NCBI GenBank assembly: GCA_028822535.1
Contig: JAPKDO010000002.1
Coordinates: forward strand, 1 to 41,378
Length of the DNA stretch: 41,378 bases
Direction of reading: 5' to 3'
Origin: Acidimicrobiales bacterium
GTDB taxonomy: Bacteria > Actinomycetota > Acidimicrobiia > Acidimicrobiales > Salinilacustritrichaceae
Shown: positions 1,750-35,857 of the stretch, piece after piece
How the letters are laid out: every line of letters begins with the position of its first letter
Numbering within the stretch: the stretch's first letter is position 1
Program-made: the position numbers and the translations under genes
The notes under the pieces: generated by a model
Databases searched by the model: none
What the model was told of the DNA's origin: nothing
What the model saw: the letters and a program-made list of their open reading frames with translations, nothing else

Positions 1750-2169
1750 TCAGCTCCAGGGGTTGAGAACTCCTAGGCCGTCGAATCGCTCGAAGTCCTT
1801 GAGATCGCGCGTCGCCACGGTCATTCCACGACTCAAGGCAGTGCCGCCGATGAGCGCATCGCGGAATGGCGCGGGGTCAGGAACATGCAGCGCAGCGGCG
1901 CGACCCGCCGCGTCCTCGTCAACGGGCAGCACTCGGTCGACGAACGCTGCGGCCACGCTTTCGTCCAGCCAAGCTCGCAACATGGCGCCTTGGTCTGGGT
2001 CTGATCGCTCCATGAGCAGAACGCTGTGTTCGAGCTCGTGCATCGTGATGACGGAGACGAACATCTCGGCGGAGTGCACTCGGGTTGCCCACTCGGCCAC
2101 GCCAGCGTTGGCCTTCCCGGACCGAACCTTTCTCAGTTCCGAGACGACATTCGTGTCGAGAACGAACAT
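1750..2169 (-). CDS. vapC: Type II toxin, PIN-domain ribonuclease (VapC family)
   Basis: 139 aa; MFVLDTNVVSELRK start plus later conserved acidic residues (TMHELEHS, FRDALIGGTA, TRDLKDFERF); start overlaps antitoxin stop (TGATG). Confidence 0.9.
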   Translation of the reverse strand: MFVLDTNVVSELRKVRSGKANAGVAEWATRVHSAEMFVSVITMHELEHSVLLMERSDPDQGAMLRAWLDESVAAAFVDRVLPVDEDAAGRAAALHVPDPAPFRDALIGGTALSRGMTVATRDLKDFERFDGLGVLNPWS

Positions 2170-2420
2170 CAGTCGAGACGGGCTGGCACGGCGACGTCGC
2201 GACTACGTGGCGAAGAGAAGTCGATGTCTTCGACGCCGACTGGCTCGGCGAGCAGTTCGAGAACGCGGTGCTTGCCGATCAGCGTCTCGTACGCATCGAA
2301 GGTGAGGAGCACGTGAGCGGGCCGCCCTCGGTCGGTGATGTACACCGGCCCGGCGTCCGCGGCCTTCTTCGCTCCACTGGTGTCCTGGTTGAACTCCCTG
2401 CTGCTGATCTGCGTTGCCAT
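2169..2420 (-). CDS. Type II antitoxin, Phd/YefM family
   Basis: MATQISSREFNQDTSGAKKAADAGPVYITDRGRPAHVLLTFDAYETL; start moved to ATG at 2420 from the longer ORF. Confidence 0.88.
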   Translation of the reverse strand: MATQISSREFNQDTSGAKKAADAGPVYITDRGRPAHVLLTFDAYETLIGKHRVLELLAEPVGVEDIDFSSPRSRDVAVPARLD

Positions 2421-2430
2421 CGAGCCTCCA

Positions 2431-2448
2431 TGTAGATACATCTCTACA
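2431..2448. promoter_or_regulatory. Inverted repeat TGTAGA-N6-TCTACA, probable TA autoregulatory operator
   Basis: Perfect 6-bp arms (tgtaga tacatc tctaca) starting 11 bp upstream of the antitoxin ATG. Confidence 0.6.
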
Positions 2449-2501
2449 TTAGTGTCGCGGCCGCAATCTCGCAACGACCTTCCGCAAACGTGCTGCCGGA
2501 C

Positions 2502-24837: not shown

Positions 24838-26337
24838 TCAGCAGGGCACGACCTCGATGGTGACCTCGTGTGTGTCGACGGCCGATCCACCGACCGCATC
24901 GAGCGTGCTGGCGGTGACCACGATGGTCTGCGAGATCGGGCCCGAGGCTTCGCGCTCGAACGGTCCGACCTCGATCTCGTGGTCGCCGGCTCCTGCGACC
25001 TCCACCGAGCCGGGCGACCCACCGTCCCACGAGACCGTCGTCGTCTCGCTGCCTGCACCGGCGCCGACCACCACCGTCGCCGTCGTCGGCCGCGTGCTGC
25101 TCCCGCACGAGGTGAGCGTGTCCGGATCGACGGTGACGGAGACCGTCGGGGAGGGAAACGACGGCGGCGTCGGCGGCGGTACGGGCGGCGGGGCGGGCGG
25201 CGGCGTGACGATCGTCGGCGTGGGTGCCGTGGTCCCGTCCGTCGGCTGGTCCACCGGCTCGACCAACGCCGGATCCTGCGGCTCGGTCGTGGTGGTCAGG
25301 GTCGACGACGTGGTGGGAGCGATGCTGGTGAGATCCGGGGCGGCGATCGCGGCGACTTCCGTGCCGTCTCCACCCCACAGCGCGATCCCAGCGACCACGG
25401 CACCCATGACGAGGACCACAGCGGCGGCGACCGCGAGTGCGGGACGCCGCCGAGTCGGAGTCGGCCAGCGCTCTGCGGCGGGGAACCCGTCGTCGTCCAT
25501 CGACTCGGTGGCGGCACTCGCGCTCGGACCCGCCGACCCCGAAGCGGCCGCCTCGACCGTCGAGAGCACCCGCTCGCGTAGACCGTGGGGCGCCGGGGCC
25601 AACAGCAGCGGCGATGCGAAGGCGGCAACTGCGCCCCGACGTCGTTCATCGCAGGTGTCGCATCCCTCGACGTGGCGGGCGATCCGCTTGCGCCACAGCG
25701 GATCGAATGCACCATCCCAACTGGCGAGCACATCGTCGAGCACGTCGCAGTCGCGTCGATGGTGGCGGGCCACGAGCAACGCCCCGGCGGCTCGGGCGAC
25801 CGTGTCCTTGAGACGCGTGACTCGGACGGACACCGCCGACTGCTTCTGACCGGTGATGCGTGCGACCTCGGCGGTGTCGAGGTCGGCCCCGAGCGTCAGC
25901 GCCAGGAGCTCCCGGTCCTCGACCGAGAGTCCGGCCGAAGCGGCATCGACCAATTCGCCGGCGTCGGACGCACCGACCGACGACAGTTCGTCGACCGAGG
26001 TGTCGGTCGCGTGGCTCATGACGGCCGCCCCGTGCGGATCGACCGGGACGGTACGGGAGCGGGCGCGCCACCGGCGCTGCACGGAGCGACGACTGATCGA
26101 GAACAACCACGCCCGCAGCGCATCCGGGTCGCGCAGTTGATCGAGCCGCTGCGATGCGACGAGGAAGACGTCTGCGACCACGTCATCCGCATCGGCCGAG
26201 TCGTCGAGCAGACGTCGGCAGTAGCCGTGGAGCGCCGCCCCGTGTGTGTCCCAGATCGCTGCCCAGCCGACTGCAGGGTCTCGCCGGACGAGCTCGACCA
26301 GGGCCGCATCGCTCGTGTCCCGCGTTCGCCCCGCCAT
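24838..26337 (-). CDS. ECF-like sigma-70 factor fused to a zinc-finger anti-sigma-like segment, TM helix and extracytoplasmic domain
   Basis: sigma2-like (YCRRLLDDSADADDVVADVFLVASQRL), sigma4-like (ALTLGADLDTAEVARITGQKQSAVSVRVTRLKDTV), HVEGCDTC (HxxxCxxC), TM ALAVAAAVVLVMGAVVAGIALW, Thr/Pro linker, beta-rich tail; GGAGGG Shine-Dalgarno before ATG 26337. Confidence 0.88.
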   Translation of the reverse strand: MAGRTRDTSDAALVELVRRDPAVGWAAIWDTHGAALHGYCRRLLDDSADADDVVADVFLVASQRLDQLRDPDALRAWLFSISRRSVQRRWRARSRTVPVDPHGAAVMSHATDTSVDELSSVGASDAGELVDAASAGLSVEDRELLALTLGADLDTAEVARITGQKQSAVSVRVTRLKDTVARAAGALLVARHHRRDCDVLDDVLASWDGAFDPLWRKRIARHVEGCDTCDERRRGAVAAFASPLLLAPAPHGLRERVLSTVEAAASGSAGPSASAATESMDDDGFPAAERWPTPTRRRPALAVAAAVVLVMGAVVAGIALWGGDGTEVAAIAAPDLTSIAPTTSSTLTTTTEPQDPALVEPVDQPTDGTTAPTPTIVTPPPAPPPVPPPTPPSFPSPTVSVTVDPDTLTSCGSSTRPTTATVVVGAGAGSETTTVSWDGGSPGSVEVAGAGDHEIEVGPFEREASGPISQTIVVTASTLDAVGGSAVDTHEVTIEVVPC

Positions 26338-26422
26338 TCGTGCCCCCTCCCGATCGTCTGCATGTCGGTTCCTCTCCATTGTTCCCTGCGCGGGGGGTCC
26401 GGTGTTCGGTCGGCGCGACCGT

Positions 26423-26455
26423 GCCTGCTCCCCGATCTCGCTTCGGGGAGCAGGC
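26423..26455. terminator. Strong stem-loop, likely intrinsic terminator of the LPxTG-like gene
   Basis: Perfect 12-bp arms gcctgctccccg / cggggagcaggc, 9-nt loop, 58 bp downstream of the stop of the minus-strand CDS at 26513. Confidence 0.65.
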
Positions 26456-26512
26456 AGGTTCCCGCCGGGGTCACGGTCGGTCGTCATCGATCGGTGGATC
26501 GGGGCCGAGGTC

Positions 26513-27169
26513 TCAGCGGATCGCCCAGCGACGGATGGCCAGGCCGAGACCCGTCATCGAGCCGCCGATCGCCGTCAGGAGGGCGATGCCGCCACCGGTG
26601 TGCGGGAGCCGGCCGGAGGGAGTGGGCTCGTCGTCGTCCTCGGGGGTGTCCTCGGGCGTGTCCTCGGGCGTGTCCTCCGGGGTGTCGTCCGGTTCGCAGA
26701 TCTCGCCGAACTCGGAGTCGACGATCTCCCCGTCACACTCGGGCTCGCCGGCCGTCAGATCGCAGCTCGCCGCCGGCTCGGGGCAATCCGGCTCACAACC
26801 GTGGGTGGCGTTGCAGCCGCCGTCGACCAGGTCATCGGGCCCGTCGACCGGCGCCGGGCCGGGATCGCCGGAGGGCGTGGCGAGCGTGTCGCCGGGATCG
26901 GGCTGCGGGTCGGGATCGGGCGTCGGCGCCACGAAGTCACCGTCGTCTTCGGGGACCGGGTCGGGGCCGGGGTCGACCGGCGTGTCGGAGAGATCGCCGA
27001 TCGGCTGGGGCTGCGGGTCGGTGTCCGGCTCGGCGATCTCGAAGTCCGGTCCCGGTGCGGGGGTCTCGGCAGAAGCAGCTCCGGCTCCGAAGCCGAGGGC
27101 GGTGACGCCGACGGCGATGGCGAGTGCCGACCGGCCGAAGAAGTTGCGGGAGGTGGGGGTGGTGCGCAT
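26513..27169 (-). CDS. Secreted cell-surface protein with C-terminal LPxTG-like sorting signal and EDTP repeats
   Basis: Signal peptide SALAIAVGVTALGFGAGAASA; DDTPEDTPEDTPEDTPED; LPHTGGGIALLTAIGGSMTGLGLAIRRWAIR. Confidence 0.85.
   Translation of the reverse strand: MRTTPTSRNFFGRSALAIAVGVTALGFGAGAASAETPAPGPDFEIAEPDTDPQPQPIGDLSDTPVDPGPDPVPEDDGDFVAPTPDPDPQPDPGDTLATPSGDPGPAPVDGPDDLVDGGCNATHGCEPDCPEPAASCDLTAGEPECDGEIVDSEFGEICEPDDTPEDTPEDTPEDTPEDDDEPTPSGRLPHTGGGIALLTAIGGSMTGLGLAIRRWAIR
26641..26690. repeat. 12-bp tandem repeat (about 4 units, gggcgtgtcctc-type) encoding EDTP
   Basis: cgggggtgtcctcgggcgtgtcctcgggcgtgtcctccggggtgtcgtcc. Confidence 0.85.
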
Positions 27170-27290: not shown

Positions 27291-28118
27291 TCAGCAGCCG
27301 CCACCGCCGGTGGTGTTCGGGCGATCGGGGATGCTGGGGTCCACGACCTCGATGTGGACGTGAGGCGAGGACGGTTCGGCCGTGAACTCGTCGACCTGCG
27401 ATTCGAACGGCAGGACACGCGAGCGGAGTGCGACAGGCGTGACCCCGGCTTCGACCCGTTGGCCCGAGCTCACCTGGAGGCCGACGATGTGGAAGAGCTT
27501 GACCTCCCATCCGAGCCGGTCGTCGGGTTCGATCACGAGGTACTCGTCGATGTGATCGCAATAGAGCGTGTAGGTGCCGGCACGGATGACCGTTCCGGTC
27601 ACCGGGGAGCGAATCTGGGTGTCGGGCACGACGACGATGTCGGCGGCGGTCCGGTCGGCCGTTCCGCGAGAGCGGGTCGCGAGCGTGAGGGGCCGGGCGG
27701 CCGTGGACGCGGCGTCTTGCTGGCGGGCGCCGTCGTGTCCCGACTCGTGGAACCCGATTCGTTCGACCCCCGCAGCGGGATGGAGCAGGACCAGTTGCTC
27801 GACGACCGCGAACGGGGAGAAGGCGGTGTCGACGACGACGCGCTCGACGAAGGCACGGGTCGTCGTCGGGGCTTCCGTGGTCGTGGGCGCGGCGGTGGTC
27901 GTCGTCGTCGGGGCTTCCGTGGTCGTCGCGGGCGCGGTCGTCGTCGATGTCTCGGCCGTGGCGGACGGCGCAGCGGTCGTCTCCGCCGCCGTGGTCGTGG
28001 GCGCGTCCGAACTCCGTCCGACAGGCACGCTCGCATCGGCGCCGGCGCACGCTGCGGCGAGACAGGCCACGGCGACACCGGCCAGCACGCGACGTCCCCT
28101 TCCCAAGCGCTCCGGCAC
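27291..28118 (-). CDS. Putative lipoprotein with Thr-rich linker and M23-like (LytM/lipoyl-fold) domain, probably catalytically degenerate
   Basis: VLAGVAVACLAAACAG lipobox; TTTEAPTTTTTAAPTTTEAPTTT; IRSPVTGTVIRAG...SSPHVHIEVVDP; GTG 28118 preceded by TACGGT-N7 (alternative GTG 28124). Confidence 0.72.
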   Translation of the reverse strand: MPERLGRGRRVLAGVAVACLAAACAGADASVPVGRSSDAPTTTAAETTAAPSATAETSTTTAPATTTEAPTTTTTAAPTTTEAPTTTRAFVERVVVDTAFSPFAVVEQLVLLHPAAGVERIGFHESGHDGARQQDAASTAARPLTLATRSRGTADRTAADIVVVPDTQIRSPVTGTVIRAGTYTLYCDHIDEYLVIEPDDRLGWEVKLFHIVGLQVSSGQRVEAGVTPVALRSRVLPFESQVDEFTAEPSSPHVHIEVVDPSIPDRPNTTGGGGC

Positions 28119-28158
28119 GCCCACAACCGTACCGGCGCGCACGTCATAGGTTCGGGCC

Positions 28159-30324
28159 GTGCGAGCACTCACCACCACCGACGTCGCGCGCCGGCCGCTT
28201 CCGGGGACCGTCGTGCCGACGGCGATCCGGTTCTCGCCGGACGGCGCCACCCTCACGTTCCTCTCGGCCCCGTCCGGGAGCCTGCACCAGGAGTTGGTCG
28301 CGGTCGACGTCACGTCCGGCGAACGGCGCACGGTTCCCACCCCGGGCGCCGTGGTCGTCGAGGCCGAACTGCCGCTCGAGGAGAAGCTGCGGCGTGAGCG
28401 AGCGCGCGAGCTCGCCGTCGGCGTCACCCGCTACCAGTGGGCGTCGTCGGGCACACGGGTCCTCGTGCCGATGACCGATGGCCTGTGGGTGTTCGACGAC
28501 CTCGGCGGCGATGCCCGGTTGGTCGTCGCCGCCGGATCGTCCGGGCCACTCCTCGACGCTCGCCTGGACGACGACGGTTCGCACATCGGCTTCGTCCGTG
28601 ACGACGAGGTGCACGTGGCCGACGTCGTCGACGGAACCGTCGTGCCGGTCACCGCTGGCGCGCGTGGAACGGGTCGCACGAACGGCCTGGCCGAGTTCAT
28701 GGCGCAGGAAGAGATGGGCCGGCCCTACGGCTTCTGGTTCTCGCCGGACGCCGCGCTGATCGCGTTCTGCGAGGTCGACGAGACACACATCCCGACCTAC
28801 CGGATCATGCACCAAGGCAGCGACACCGTCGGTGTCGAGGCGCAGGAAGACCACGCCTACCCGTTCGCCGGAGCGGCCAACGCCGTCGTGCGGGTGGGGG
28901 TCGTGGCGTCGGACGGTTCGACCGCTTCGTCGCCGGTGTGGCTCGACCTCGACGCGACCGACATCGGCGAGGACCGCTACGTGGGTCGAGTCGATTGGTC
29001 GCCCGACGGACGCGTGGTGGTCCAACTCGAGAACCGCGAACAGACGCGACTCGATGTGGTCGCGTTCGATCCCGCCTCCGGTGCGGGCACGCTGGTCCTG
29101 CGCGAGACCTCGGAGCTGTGGATCAACCTCCACGACCATCTCCGATTCTTGGCCGACGGGACGTTCGCGTGGGCGACCGAGCGGGATGGGTTCCGGAACC
29201 TCGAACTCCGCGCCCCCGACGGCTCGCTGATCCGGCCGCTGACGACGGGCGCCGATGTCGTGACGGCGGTCGTGGCGGTCGACGAGGAGTCCGTCTGGTT
29301 CACCAGCACCGGCCCCACCGCGCTCGAACGCCACCTCCACCGAGTGCCCCTCGACGGGTCGGCGCCGCCGGTACGGATCACCGAGACCGTCGGTGTCCAC
29401 GCCTCCGTGGTGCACACGGGAACCGGGCACCGGATCGACACGTGTTCATCACCCGACGCGCCCCCGACCGTCACGCTCGTTCGCGACGACGGCACGACGA
29501 TCCTCGTGCACGACGCCTCCGACGACGAGCGTGTCGCCGAACTGGGGCTCGTTCCTCCCACCGAGCGGACCGTCACCGCCGACGACGGCACTGTCCTCCA
29601 CGCCGCCGTCCACCTCCCCGACGGGCCGGGTCCTCACCCGACGATCGTGTCCGTCTACGGCGGACCGCACGCCCAGGTGCTGACGCGATCGTGGGCGCCG
29701 ACCGTCGCCCTCCGCGCCCAGTTCCTCCGTCAGCAGGGGTTCTGCGTCGCCGTGGTCGACAACCGTGGCTCGACGGACCGCGGGCTGGCCTTCGAGGGTG
29801 CCCTCCACCCTCGGATGGGCACGGTGGAGGTCGACGATCAGGTCGCGCTCGTGCGATCGCTCGTCGCCGACGGCATCGCCGACCCGGACCGGGTCGGGAT
29901 CTACGGCTGGAGCTACGGCGGCTACATGAGCGCCATGTGCCTCGCCCGCCGTCCCGACGTGTTCGCCGCAGCCTGCGCCGGCGCGCCCGTCACCGACTGG
30001 GACGGCTACGACACGCACTACACCGAGCGCTACATGGGTACGCCGTCCTCCAACCCCGACGGCTATCGGGACGCATCGGTGATGACCCACGTGGCCGGCC
30101 TGCGCGACCGACGCCTGCTGTTGATCCACGGCCTCATCGACGAGAACGTGCACTTCCGCCACACGGCTCGCCTCCTCAACGCGTTGATCGCCGAGGGCAT
30201 CGACCACGAACTCTTCCTCTTCCCCGACGAGCGTCACGTTCCGCGGTCGGAGACCGACCGGGCGTTCATGGAGGACCGCATCGTCGCCTTCTTCCGCGAC
30301 GCGCTCGACCACCCTCCGGGCTGA
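28159..30324 (+). CDS. S9-family prolyl oligopeptidase / dipeptidyl-peptidase IV-like
   Basis: N-terminal DPP4-like propeller; C-term GIYGWSYGGYMSAMCLARRPDVFAAACAGAPVTDW, LIHGLIDENVHFRHT; TAGGTT-N6-GTG. Confidence 0.94.
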   Translation: MRALTTTDVARRPLPGTVVPTAIRFSPDGATLTFLSAPSGSLHQELVAVDVTSGERRTVPTPGAVVVEAELPLEEKLRRERARELAVGVTRYQWASSGTRVLVPMTDGLWVFDDLGGDARLVVAAGSSGPLLDARLDDDGSHIGFVRDDEVHVADVVDGTVVPVTAGARGTGRTNGLAEFMAQEEMGRPYGFWFSPDAALIAFCEVDETHIPTYRIMHQGSDTVGVEAQEDHAYPFAGAANAVVRVGVVASDGSTASSPVWLDLDATDIGEDRYVGRVDWSPDGRVVVQLENREQTRLDVVAFDPASGAGTLVLRETSELWINLHDHLRFLADGTFAWATERDGFRNLELRAPDGSLIRPLTTGADVVTAVVAVDEESVWFTSTGPTALERHLHRVPLDGSAPPVRITETVGVHASVVHTGTGHRIDTCSSPDAPPTVTLVRDDGTTILVHDASDDERVAELGLVPPTERTVTADDGTVLHAAVHLPDGPGPHPTIVSVYGGPHAQVLTRSWAPTVALRAQFLRQQGFCVAVVDNRGSTDRGLAFEGALHPRMGTVEVDDQVALVRSLVADGIADPDRVGIYGWSYGGYMSAMCLARRPDVFAAACAGAPVTDWDGYDTHYTERYMGTPSSNPDGYRDASVMTHVAGLRDRRLLLIHGLIDENVHFRHTARLLNALIAEGIDHELFLFPDERHVPRSETDRAFMEDRIVAFFRDALDHPPG

Positions 30325-35092: not shown

Positions 35093-35857
35093 CTACTGCT
35101 CCTCGAGGAGGTGGCGGAGCTTGGCTCGCAGTCGCTGCACCGTGTTGTCGACGAACTTGTCGGTCTTTCCCATCTGATCGGCGATCTCGCGGTACTTCTT
35201 CCCGCTCAACAACCCGACCAGCACGTGCGCCTCGTTCTCCGACAGGCGGTCCGGCTCGTCCTTCTTTCGACGTGTTCCCTTGCCCTCGAAGTGCGTCCGG
35301 AGGATCTCGTGTACGGCTTCGTGGCCATAGGCCTCGAGCAGACCCTCGATCTCGGACAGCCCGAACGGCATGCCACCGCTGTCATCCATGTGCATGCGAT
35401 CGATGGCCGACTCCTCGTGACTCACCGCCGGCAGCTGGGTGATCGAACCGCGCTCCTCGTCGTGTTCGGCGTCGTGATGGGCGATCCGATCCGATTCGGT
35501 GAGCGGCGCGTGCTTCATCCGGTTGGCCGCCTTGACCGCAGTGATCACCTGCCGCTGCATACATGTCCGGGCGAAACTCGGAAACGCGGCGCCAGCCGAA
35601 TCGGAGTAGTCGCGGACGGCTTTCCAGAAGCCGATCATCGCTTGTTGGCGAACGTCTTCGTGGTCGCCACCGGGGACGAAGTACCTGCGGGCGACCGACA
35701 GGACCAGCCCCTCGTGCCGGGCGAGCAGTTCGTTGACGGCATCGCGGTCACGGACCGCTTGGAACGCGGCCACCAGCGCATCGTCCGACCGCTGTGCGGT
35801 GAGCTGCGTCCCGCGCCTGCGGCGAGTGGTCCGCGTCGTCTCCCCCGGGTCCCCCAT
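35093..35857 (-). CDS. Sigma-70 family sigma factor resembling SigH/Spo0H
   Basis: EGLVLSVARRYFVPGGDHEDVRQQAMIGFWKAVRDYSDSAGAAFPSFARTCMQRQVITAVKAANRMKHAPL; region 4 LSENEAHVLVGLLSGKKYREIADQMGKTDKFVDNTVQRLRAKLRHLLEE. Confidence 0.9.
   Translation of the reverse strand: MGDPGETTRTTRRRRGTQLTAQRSDDALVAAFQAVRDRDAVNELLARHEGLVLSVARRYFVPGGDHEDVRQQAMIGFWKAVRDYSDSAGAAFPSFARTCMQRQVITAVKAANRMKHAPLTESDRIAHHDAEHDEERGSITQLPAVSHEESAIDRMHMDDSGGMPFGLSEIEGLLEAYGHEAVHEILRTHFEGKGTRRKKDEPDRLSENEAHVLVGLLSGKKYREIADQMGKTDKFVDNTVQRLRAKLRHLLEEQ

Follow-up and report, generated by a model that had tools for sequence, protein, structure and literature searches.

Sigma factors of the groups ECF48, ECF52 and ECF53 carry a C-terminal zinc finger and a membrane extension, and their release by proteolysis is expected; in ECF48 and ECF53 the zinc finger is likely of the ZAS type, with one to two membrane helices and extensions of no more than 400 aa (PMC8999054). 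The sole worked example of such a fusion is IutY (ECF243) of Pseudomonas putida, a sigma-membrane anti-sigma protein that is released by Prc and RseP (PMC8999054). For SCO4117 of Streptomyces coelicolor, a member of ECF52, a knockout and the expression of a truncated form have been reported; the sigma-only form of this protein influences development and switches on its own gene (PMC5826349). In class I anti-sigma domains, sigma4 is contacted by helix 1, and the face of sigma2 that meets the RNA polymerase (RNAP) clamp by helix 4; about 48% of membrane-bound anti-sigma factors contain a zinc motif, and the role proposed for these motifs is structural (PMC7406223). The zinc set of RsiW from Bacillus subtilis is composed of C3, H30, C34 and C37, and SigW is bound by RsiW whether zinc is present or not (PMC5358783).

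In this study, we report a 499-aa protein of an Acidimicrobiales bacterium in which sigma domains, an anti-sigma domain, a membrane helix and an ectodomain are encoded by a single gene, and show that it is a real, well-conserved fused sigma factor of a known kind. The window, i.e. the whole stretch of DNA that was analysed, comprises 41,378 nucleotides. The gene and the features immediately upstream of it are:

24838..26337, minus strand: fused sigma / anti-sigma / membrane / ectodomain gene, 499 aa (open frame, family matches, stop-free homologues)
26343..26351, minus strand: purine-rich, ribosome-binding-like GGGAGGGGG, just 5' of the ATG (sequence)
26423..26455, minus strand: strong RNA hairpin in the stretch that separates the sigma gene from the LPxTG gene; it resembles a terminator but has no U tract (folding)
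26513..27169, minus strand: sortase-substrate-type (LPxTG) gene, a possible functional neighbour (LPHTGGG, hydrophobic helix and RRWAIR; weak Gram_pos_anchor match)

The frame is open over 499 codons without a break from the ATG at 26337, its GC3 is 0.83, and internal stops are absent from homologous fused proteins in many genomes. A frameshift between the domains, the weak point foreseen by the sequence-only reading, was looked for, and both a frameshift and a chance fusion are ruled out by a single open frame whose unbroken layout is common to 44 relatives. An alternative in-frame start at 26487, giving a longer product, is less likely because the strong hairpin lies within the extra stretch. 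The 191-nt stretch holding this hairpin has a folding energy of -91.6 kcal/mol (z -4.57), and the hairpin is absent from the list given by a simple terminator scan.

Within the protein, the following parts were delimited, in order from the N-terminus:

26050..26250, minus strand: sigma region 2, aa 30-96 (PF04542, E=5e-12)
25813..25953, minus strand: sigma region 4, aa 129-175 (PF08281, weak; TIGR02937)
25540..25761, minus strand: predicted class I anti-sigma domain, aa 193-266 (invariant residues, predicted helices, RsiW CHCC pattern)
25651..25674, minus strand: HVEGCDTC, aa 222-229, an HxxxCxxC motif (sequence)
25480..25491, minus strand: DGFP motif next to the membrane on its cytoplasmic side, aa 283-286 (conservation)
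25378..25434, minus strand: single transmembrane helix, aa 302-320, or 295-321 in the model (hydrophobicity, charge, model)
25147..25377, minus strand: Thr/Pro/Ser-rich stalk, aa 321-397 (composition; low model confidence)
24841..25146, minus strand: predicted Ig-like beta ectodomain, aa 398-499 (predicted strands, Pfam matches of relatives, fold search, alignment)

The sequence-only reading had already named most of these parts, namely sigma2 and sigma4 regions, an anti-sigma-like segment with HxxxCxxC, one membrane helix, a Thr/Pro-rich stalk and a beta-rich ectodomain with two Cys; all were recovered here, and the anti-sigma-like segment was sharpened to a full class I domain by the addition of C197 and helix 4. 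In the sigma half, the PF08281 match to region 4 fell below the curated cut-off (E=0.0035), and the general ECF model TIGR02937 matched above its cut-off over aa 27-181 (E=3.8e-17). Sigma2 and sigma4 are the only sigma regions present and are joined by a short linker, as in ECF sigma factors, and the key sigma positions are invariant among 40 aligned family members. The closest PDB sequence is the ECF sigma factor SigL of M. tuberculosis, and a scan of the genome contigs returned general sigma matches only. A second sigma factor is encoded in the window at 35093-35857 (minus strand), with SigH/spore-type matches (E=4e-35) and about 90 residues separating its regions 2 and 4.

In the anti-sigma part, C197, H222, C226, C229 and R254 are invariant among the 40 aligned sequences, and P250 is nearly so. 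Since C197 is invariant alongside the three residues of HxxxCxxC, a CHCC zinc set as in RsiW is predicted. Helices were predicted at aa 198-206, 213-225, 227-240 and 253-266; the fourth contains LRERVL and, together with its approach, makes up the conserved APxxLRxRVL stretch. As expected of ZAS-type domains, the segment combines a predicted three-helix bundle with a helix 4 and contains C(n)HxxxCxxC; the zf-HC2 model matched just one of the 40 members. The CHCC set and the four-helix layout including helix 4 thus indicate more than a motif, and sequence and structure prediction together mark the segment as a class I anti-sigma domain with all its parts. The occurrence of HxxxCxxC in all relatives is partly the result of selection, because the motif belonged to the search profile. 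The protein resembles RsiW in its C...HxxxCxxC pattern, its four-helix layout and its one membrane helix, but SigW and RsiW are two separate proteins, and the passages of PMC5358783 examined describe no Ig-like ectodomain for RsiW.

The segment at aa 302-320 is the sole strong hydrophobic helix of the protein (Kyte-Doolittle mean 2.68). Net charge is +4 on its N-terminal side and -2 on its C-terminal side, which by the positive-inside rule gives an N-in/C-out orientation with the sigma part inside. Weak hydrophobic stretches past the zinc motif in some relatives were considered as a second membrane helix and rejected, as they correspond to the segment leading to helix 4. Ahead of the helix, the GFP tripeptide is present in 35 of 45 close relatives (mean 0.9 and maximum 4 in shuffled sequences), at a distance of 11-18 aa in most members; some rows of the search alignment ended in GFP, which contributed a small share of scores of 113-163 bits, and the motif was also found in a Nonomuraea homologue that had been retrieved by a query without GFP.

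Past the helix, the residues are 18% Thr and 15% Pro. The ectodomain is predicted to be all-beta, with eight strands between aa 398 and 498; its only two Cys are C411 and C499, the second of which is the final residue of the protein. Ig-like Pfam models (HYDIN/VesB, BACON and Big_13) match the ectodomains of relatives, and a fold search gave Ig and FN3 domains, though with low significance. The positions of the two Cys would fit a disulphide linking the two ends of the domain.

The layout is kept in the 44 close relatives that could be analysed among matches with E below 1e-30; these belong to more than 10 families and include a paralogue from the organism's own genome (C205), which is 35% identical across the matched part. 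An N-in orientation is given by charge in 42 of the 44, the clamp lies 60-102 aa from the helix (median 75), the ectodomain has exactly two Cys in 32, and 31 have a Cys no more than five residues from the C-terminus. With a profile of the clamp region, matches were obtained in 90 of the 395 class genomes and in 64 of the 397 genomes sampled from the phylum, the weaker matches including unfused zinc anti-sigma proteins. The layout also extends beyond Actinomycetota, to WP_012642865.1 of Thermomicrobium roseum, whose annotation reads simply 'RNA polymerase sigma factor'; this protein and the homologue of Nonomuraea gerenzanensis have the same order of parts as the 499-aa protein but different ectodomains. 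The 499-aa protein had no match in plasmid and phage collections. In one relative (L110:5506-6933), the fused protein ends in a sequence similar to the end of a secreted lipoprotein encoded just upstream (LESFIENSCGVG versus LESYIETACGVTA), which suggests an exchange of ectodomains.

Among the known groups, ECF52 was compared by profile and tree. SCO4117 likewise contains sigma domains, a zinc finger, a membrane helix, a Pro-rich stretch and an extracytoplasmic domain in one chain (PMC5826349), but its group carries an NPCBM carbohydrate-binding module as ectodomain where the 499-aa protein has the predicted Ig-like domain with two Cys, and a domain search of the 499-aa protein gave no match to NPCBM. 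With ECF52-type proteins recovered via the NPCBM module, the sigma and clamp parts of the 499-aa protein scored 233 bits against the profile of its own family (self excluded), 165 against that of a wider set of fused proteins, and 12 against the ECF52-type profile. In the tree, the protein grouped with other fused proteins, apart from ECF52, on a longish branch; the AU test left a joint clade with ECF52 unrejected (p=0.66), the branches being long. Membership of ECF52 is therefore ruled out by the profile score and the ectodomain, the tree by itself not being decisive.

The description of ECF48 and ECF53, a zinc finger and membrane helix fused C-terminally, is matched by the protein in a comparison made by description only (PMC8999054). 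Four fused sigma factors (L134, L135, L139 and L144) were seen to carry a CAP (cysteine-rich secretory protein) ectodomain (PF00188, E down to 2e-27). The wider clade takes in this CAP-domain group, whose genomes also carry ECF52-type proteins, and a further group (family f112); from their architecture and guessed taxa, these two could be ECF53 and ECF48. IutY shares the fusion of sigma to a membrane anti-sigma (PMC8999054), but it serves iron cell-surface signalling with an outer membrane receptor, and is set apart by this description and not by sequence. The general design is thus already known from other actinobacteria. The novelty is smaller than the sequence-only reading suggested: the domain order has been published (PMC5826349, PMC8999054). 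The protein differs from ECF52 in its sigma sequence and its ectodomain. The new details are the GFP before the helix, the C-terminal Cys and the sortase-substrate gene directly upstream; in the literature examined, no description was found of this Ig-like type of ectodomain or of the GFP motif.

The gene at 26513-27169, which immediately precedes the fused sigma gene, encodes a secreted, acidic, Asp/Pro-rich protein, and the genome contains five sortase matches. Genes for anchored surface proteins adjoin fused sigma genes in L045 and L107 (gap 4 bp) and in L051, and in L044 both an anchored surface gene and a probable sortase gene lie beside the fused sigma gene; the strict LPxTG rule used overlooked even 26513-27169 itself. 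In family f7, the neighbour is a glycosyltransferase-like gene. As an LPxTG neighbour recurs in few lineages only, it was ruled out as a general rule; the link of the fused sigma factors to surface proteins is suggestive and not general, because the neighbours differ widely in other lineages. The minus-strand gene 27291-28427, which lies upstream of the LPxTG gene, encodes a probable lipoprotein with a Thr-rich stretch and a weak match to an M23 peptidase (PF01551, E=3.6e-4). At 1750-2474 (minus strand), two small adjoining genes have, judged by eye, the look of a PIN-domain toxin and its antitoxin.

The protein probably works as a one-protein pair of ECF sigma and membrane anti-sigma factors, inhibited in cis and then released by intramembrane proteolysis, a reading favoured because of the domain layout and the precedents of IutY and of ECF48, ECF52 and ECF53. 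In the resting state, the protein would be seated in the membrane; its zinc anti-sigma domain would clamp both sigma regions in cis, and its Ig-like, Cys-bearing end would project into the cell wall space. Perception by the ectodomain of a signal from the envelope or the surface would lead to a cut in the exposed stalk, followed by a site-2 (M50) cut within the membrane helix, after which cytosolic proteolysis or unfolding of the anti-sigma remnant may free the sigma factor for core RNA polymerase. M50 proteases are present in the organism's own genome, but as they were also found in 14 of 14 controls and are near-universal, their presence says little. In the AlphaFold model of the full-length protein, the sigma part, whose nearest solved fold is SigW, fitted SigW from the RsiW complex (TMt 0.75) better than RNAP-bound SigL and SigH (0.33-0.40). 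The sigma part modelled without the anti-sigma part took the same compact, SigW/RsiW-like shape (TMt 0.75-0.77), so the model is no evidence for cis inhibition and was dropped as support for it. GGAAC-type autoregulatory ECF promoter motifs were not enriched upstream of 47 relatives.

Alternatively, the sigma factor might be active while tethered, with a signal at the ectodomain changing the shape of the helix and loosening the clamp, so that transcription would take place at the membrane with no cleavage. A fusion holding sigma and clamp together permanently would suit such a device, and the GFP motif 11-18 aa ahead of the helix could be its coupling element and not a cleavage site. Against tethered activity, no sigma factor is known to function from the membrane. 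The characterised fused sigma factor, IutY, also undergoes cleavage (PMC8999054), and we consider activity without release unlikely.

The signal could also be cytosolic, the zinc anti-sigma domain sensing redox or zinc and the membrane part only positioning the protein at the wall. A full CHCC motif, invariant in the family, agrees with this, and the anti-sigma domain of RsrA reportedly senses redox or zinc and would be a precedent. Against it, the conserved ectodomain and its conserved Cys pair point to sensing from outside, the zinc motifs found in some 48% of membrane-bound anti-sigma factors have a proposed structural role (PMC7406223), and RsiW binds SigW independently of zinc (PMC5358783); we therefore hold a cytosolic signal to be quite unlikely. 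That the protein is mainly a surface or wall protein, with a degenerate sigma half or one without a transcriptional role, would accord with the weak Pfam sigma4 score and the longish branch, but is highly improbable in view of the strong sigma2 match, the invariant sigma positions in 40 members and the TIGR02937 match above cut-off.

Beyond cis inhibition and intramembrane release of this one protein, we tentatively suggest that a large, as yet unnamed ECF group centred on the organism's own class may exist, whose members would combine an Ig-like ectodomain ending in a C-terminal Cys with a cytoplasmic juxtamembrane GFP and would thereby form a distinct one-protein cell-surface sensor, possibly tied in some lineages to sortase-anchored surface proteins. 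Fused sigma/anti-sigma proteins place a 1:1 switch within one gene and are poorly studied, with IutY alone reported to have been resolved in mechanism by experiment, and SCO4117 studied by genetics. The many members of this family, with their single helix, juxtamembrane motif and compact ectodomain, would make the question of whether such sigma factors are cleaved or act while tethered directly testable.
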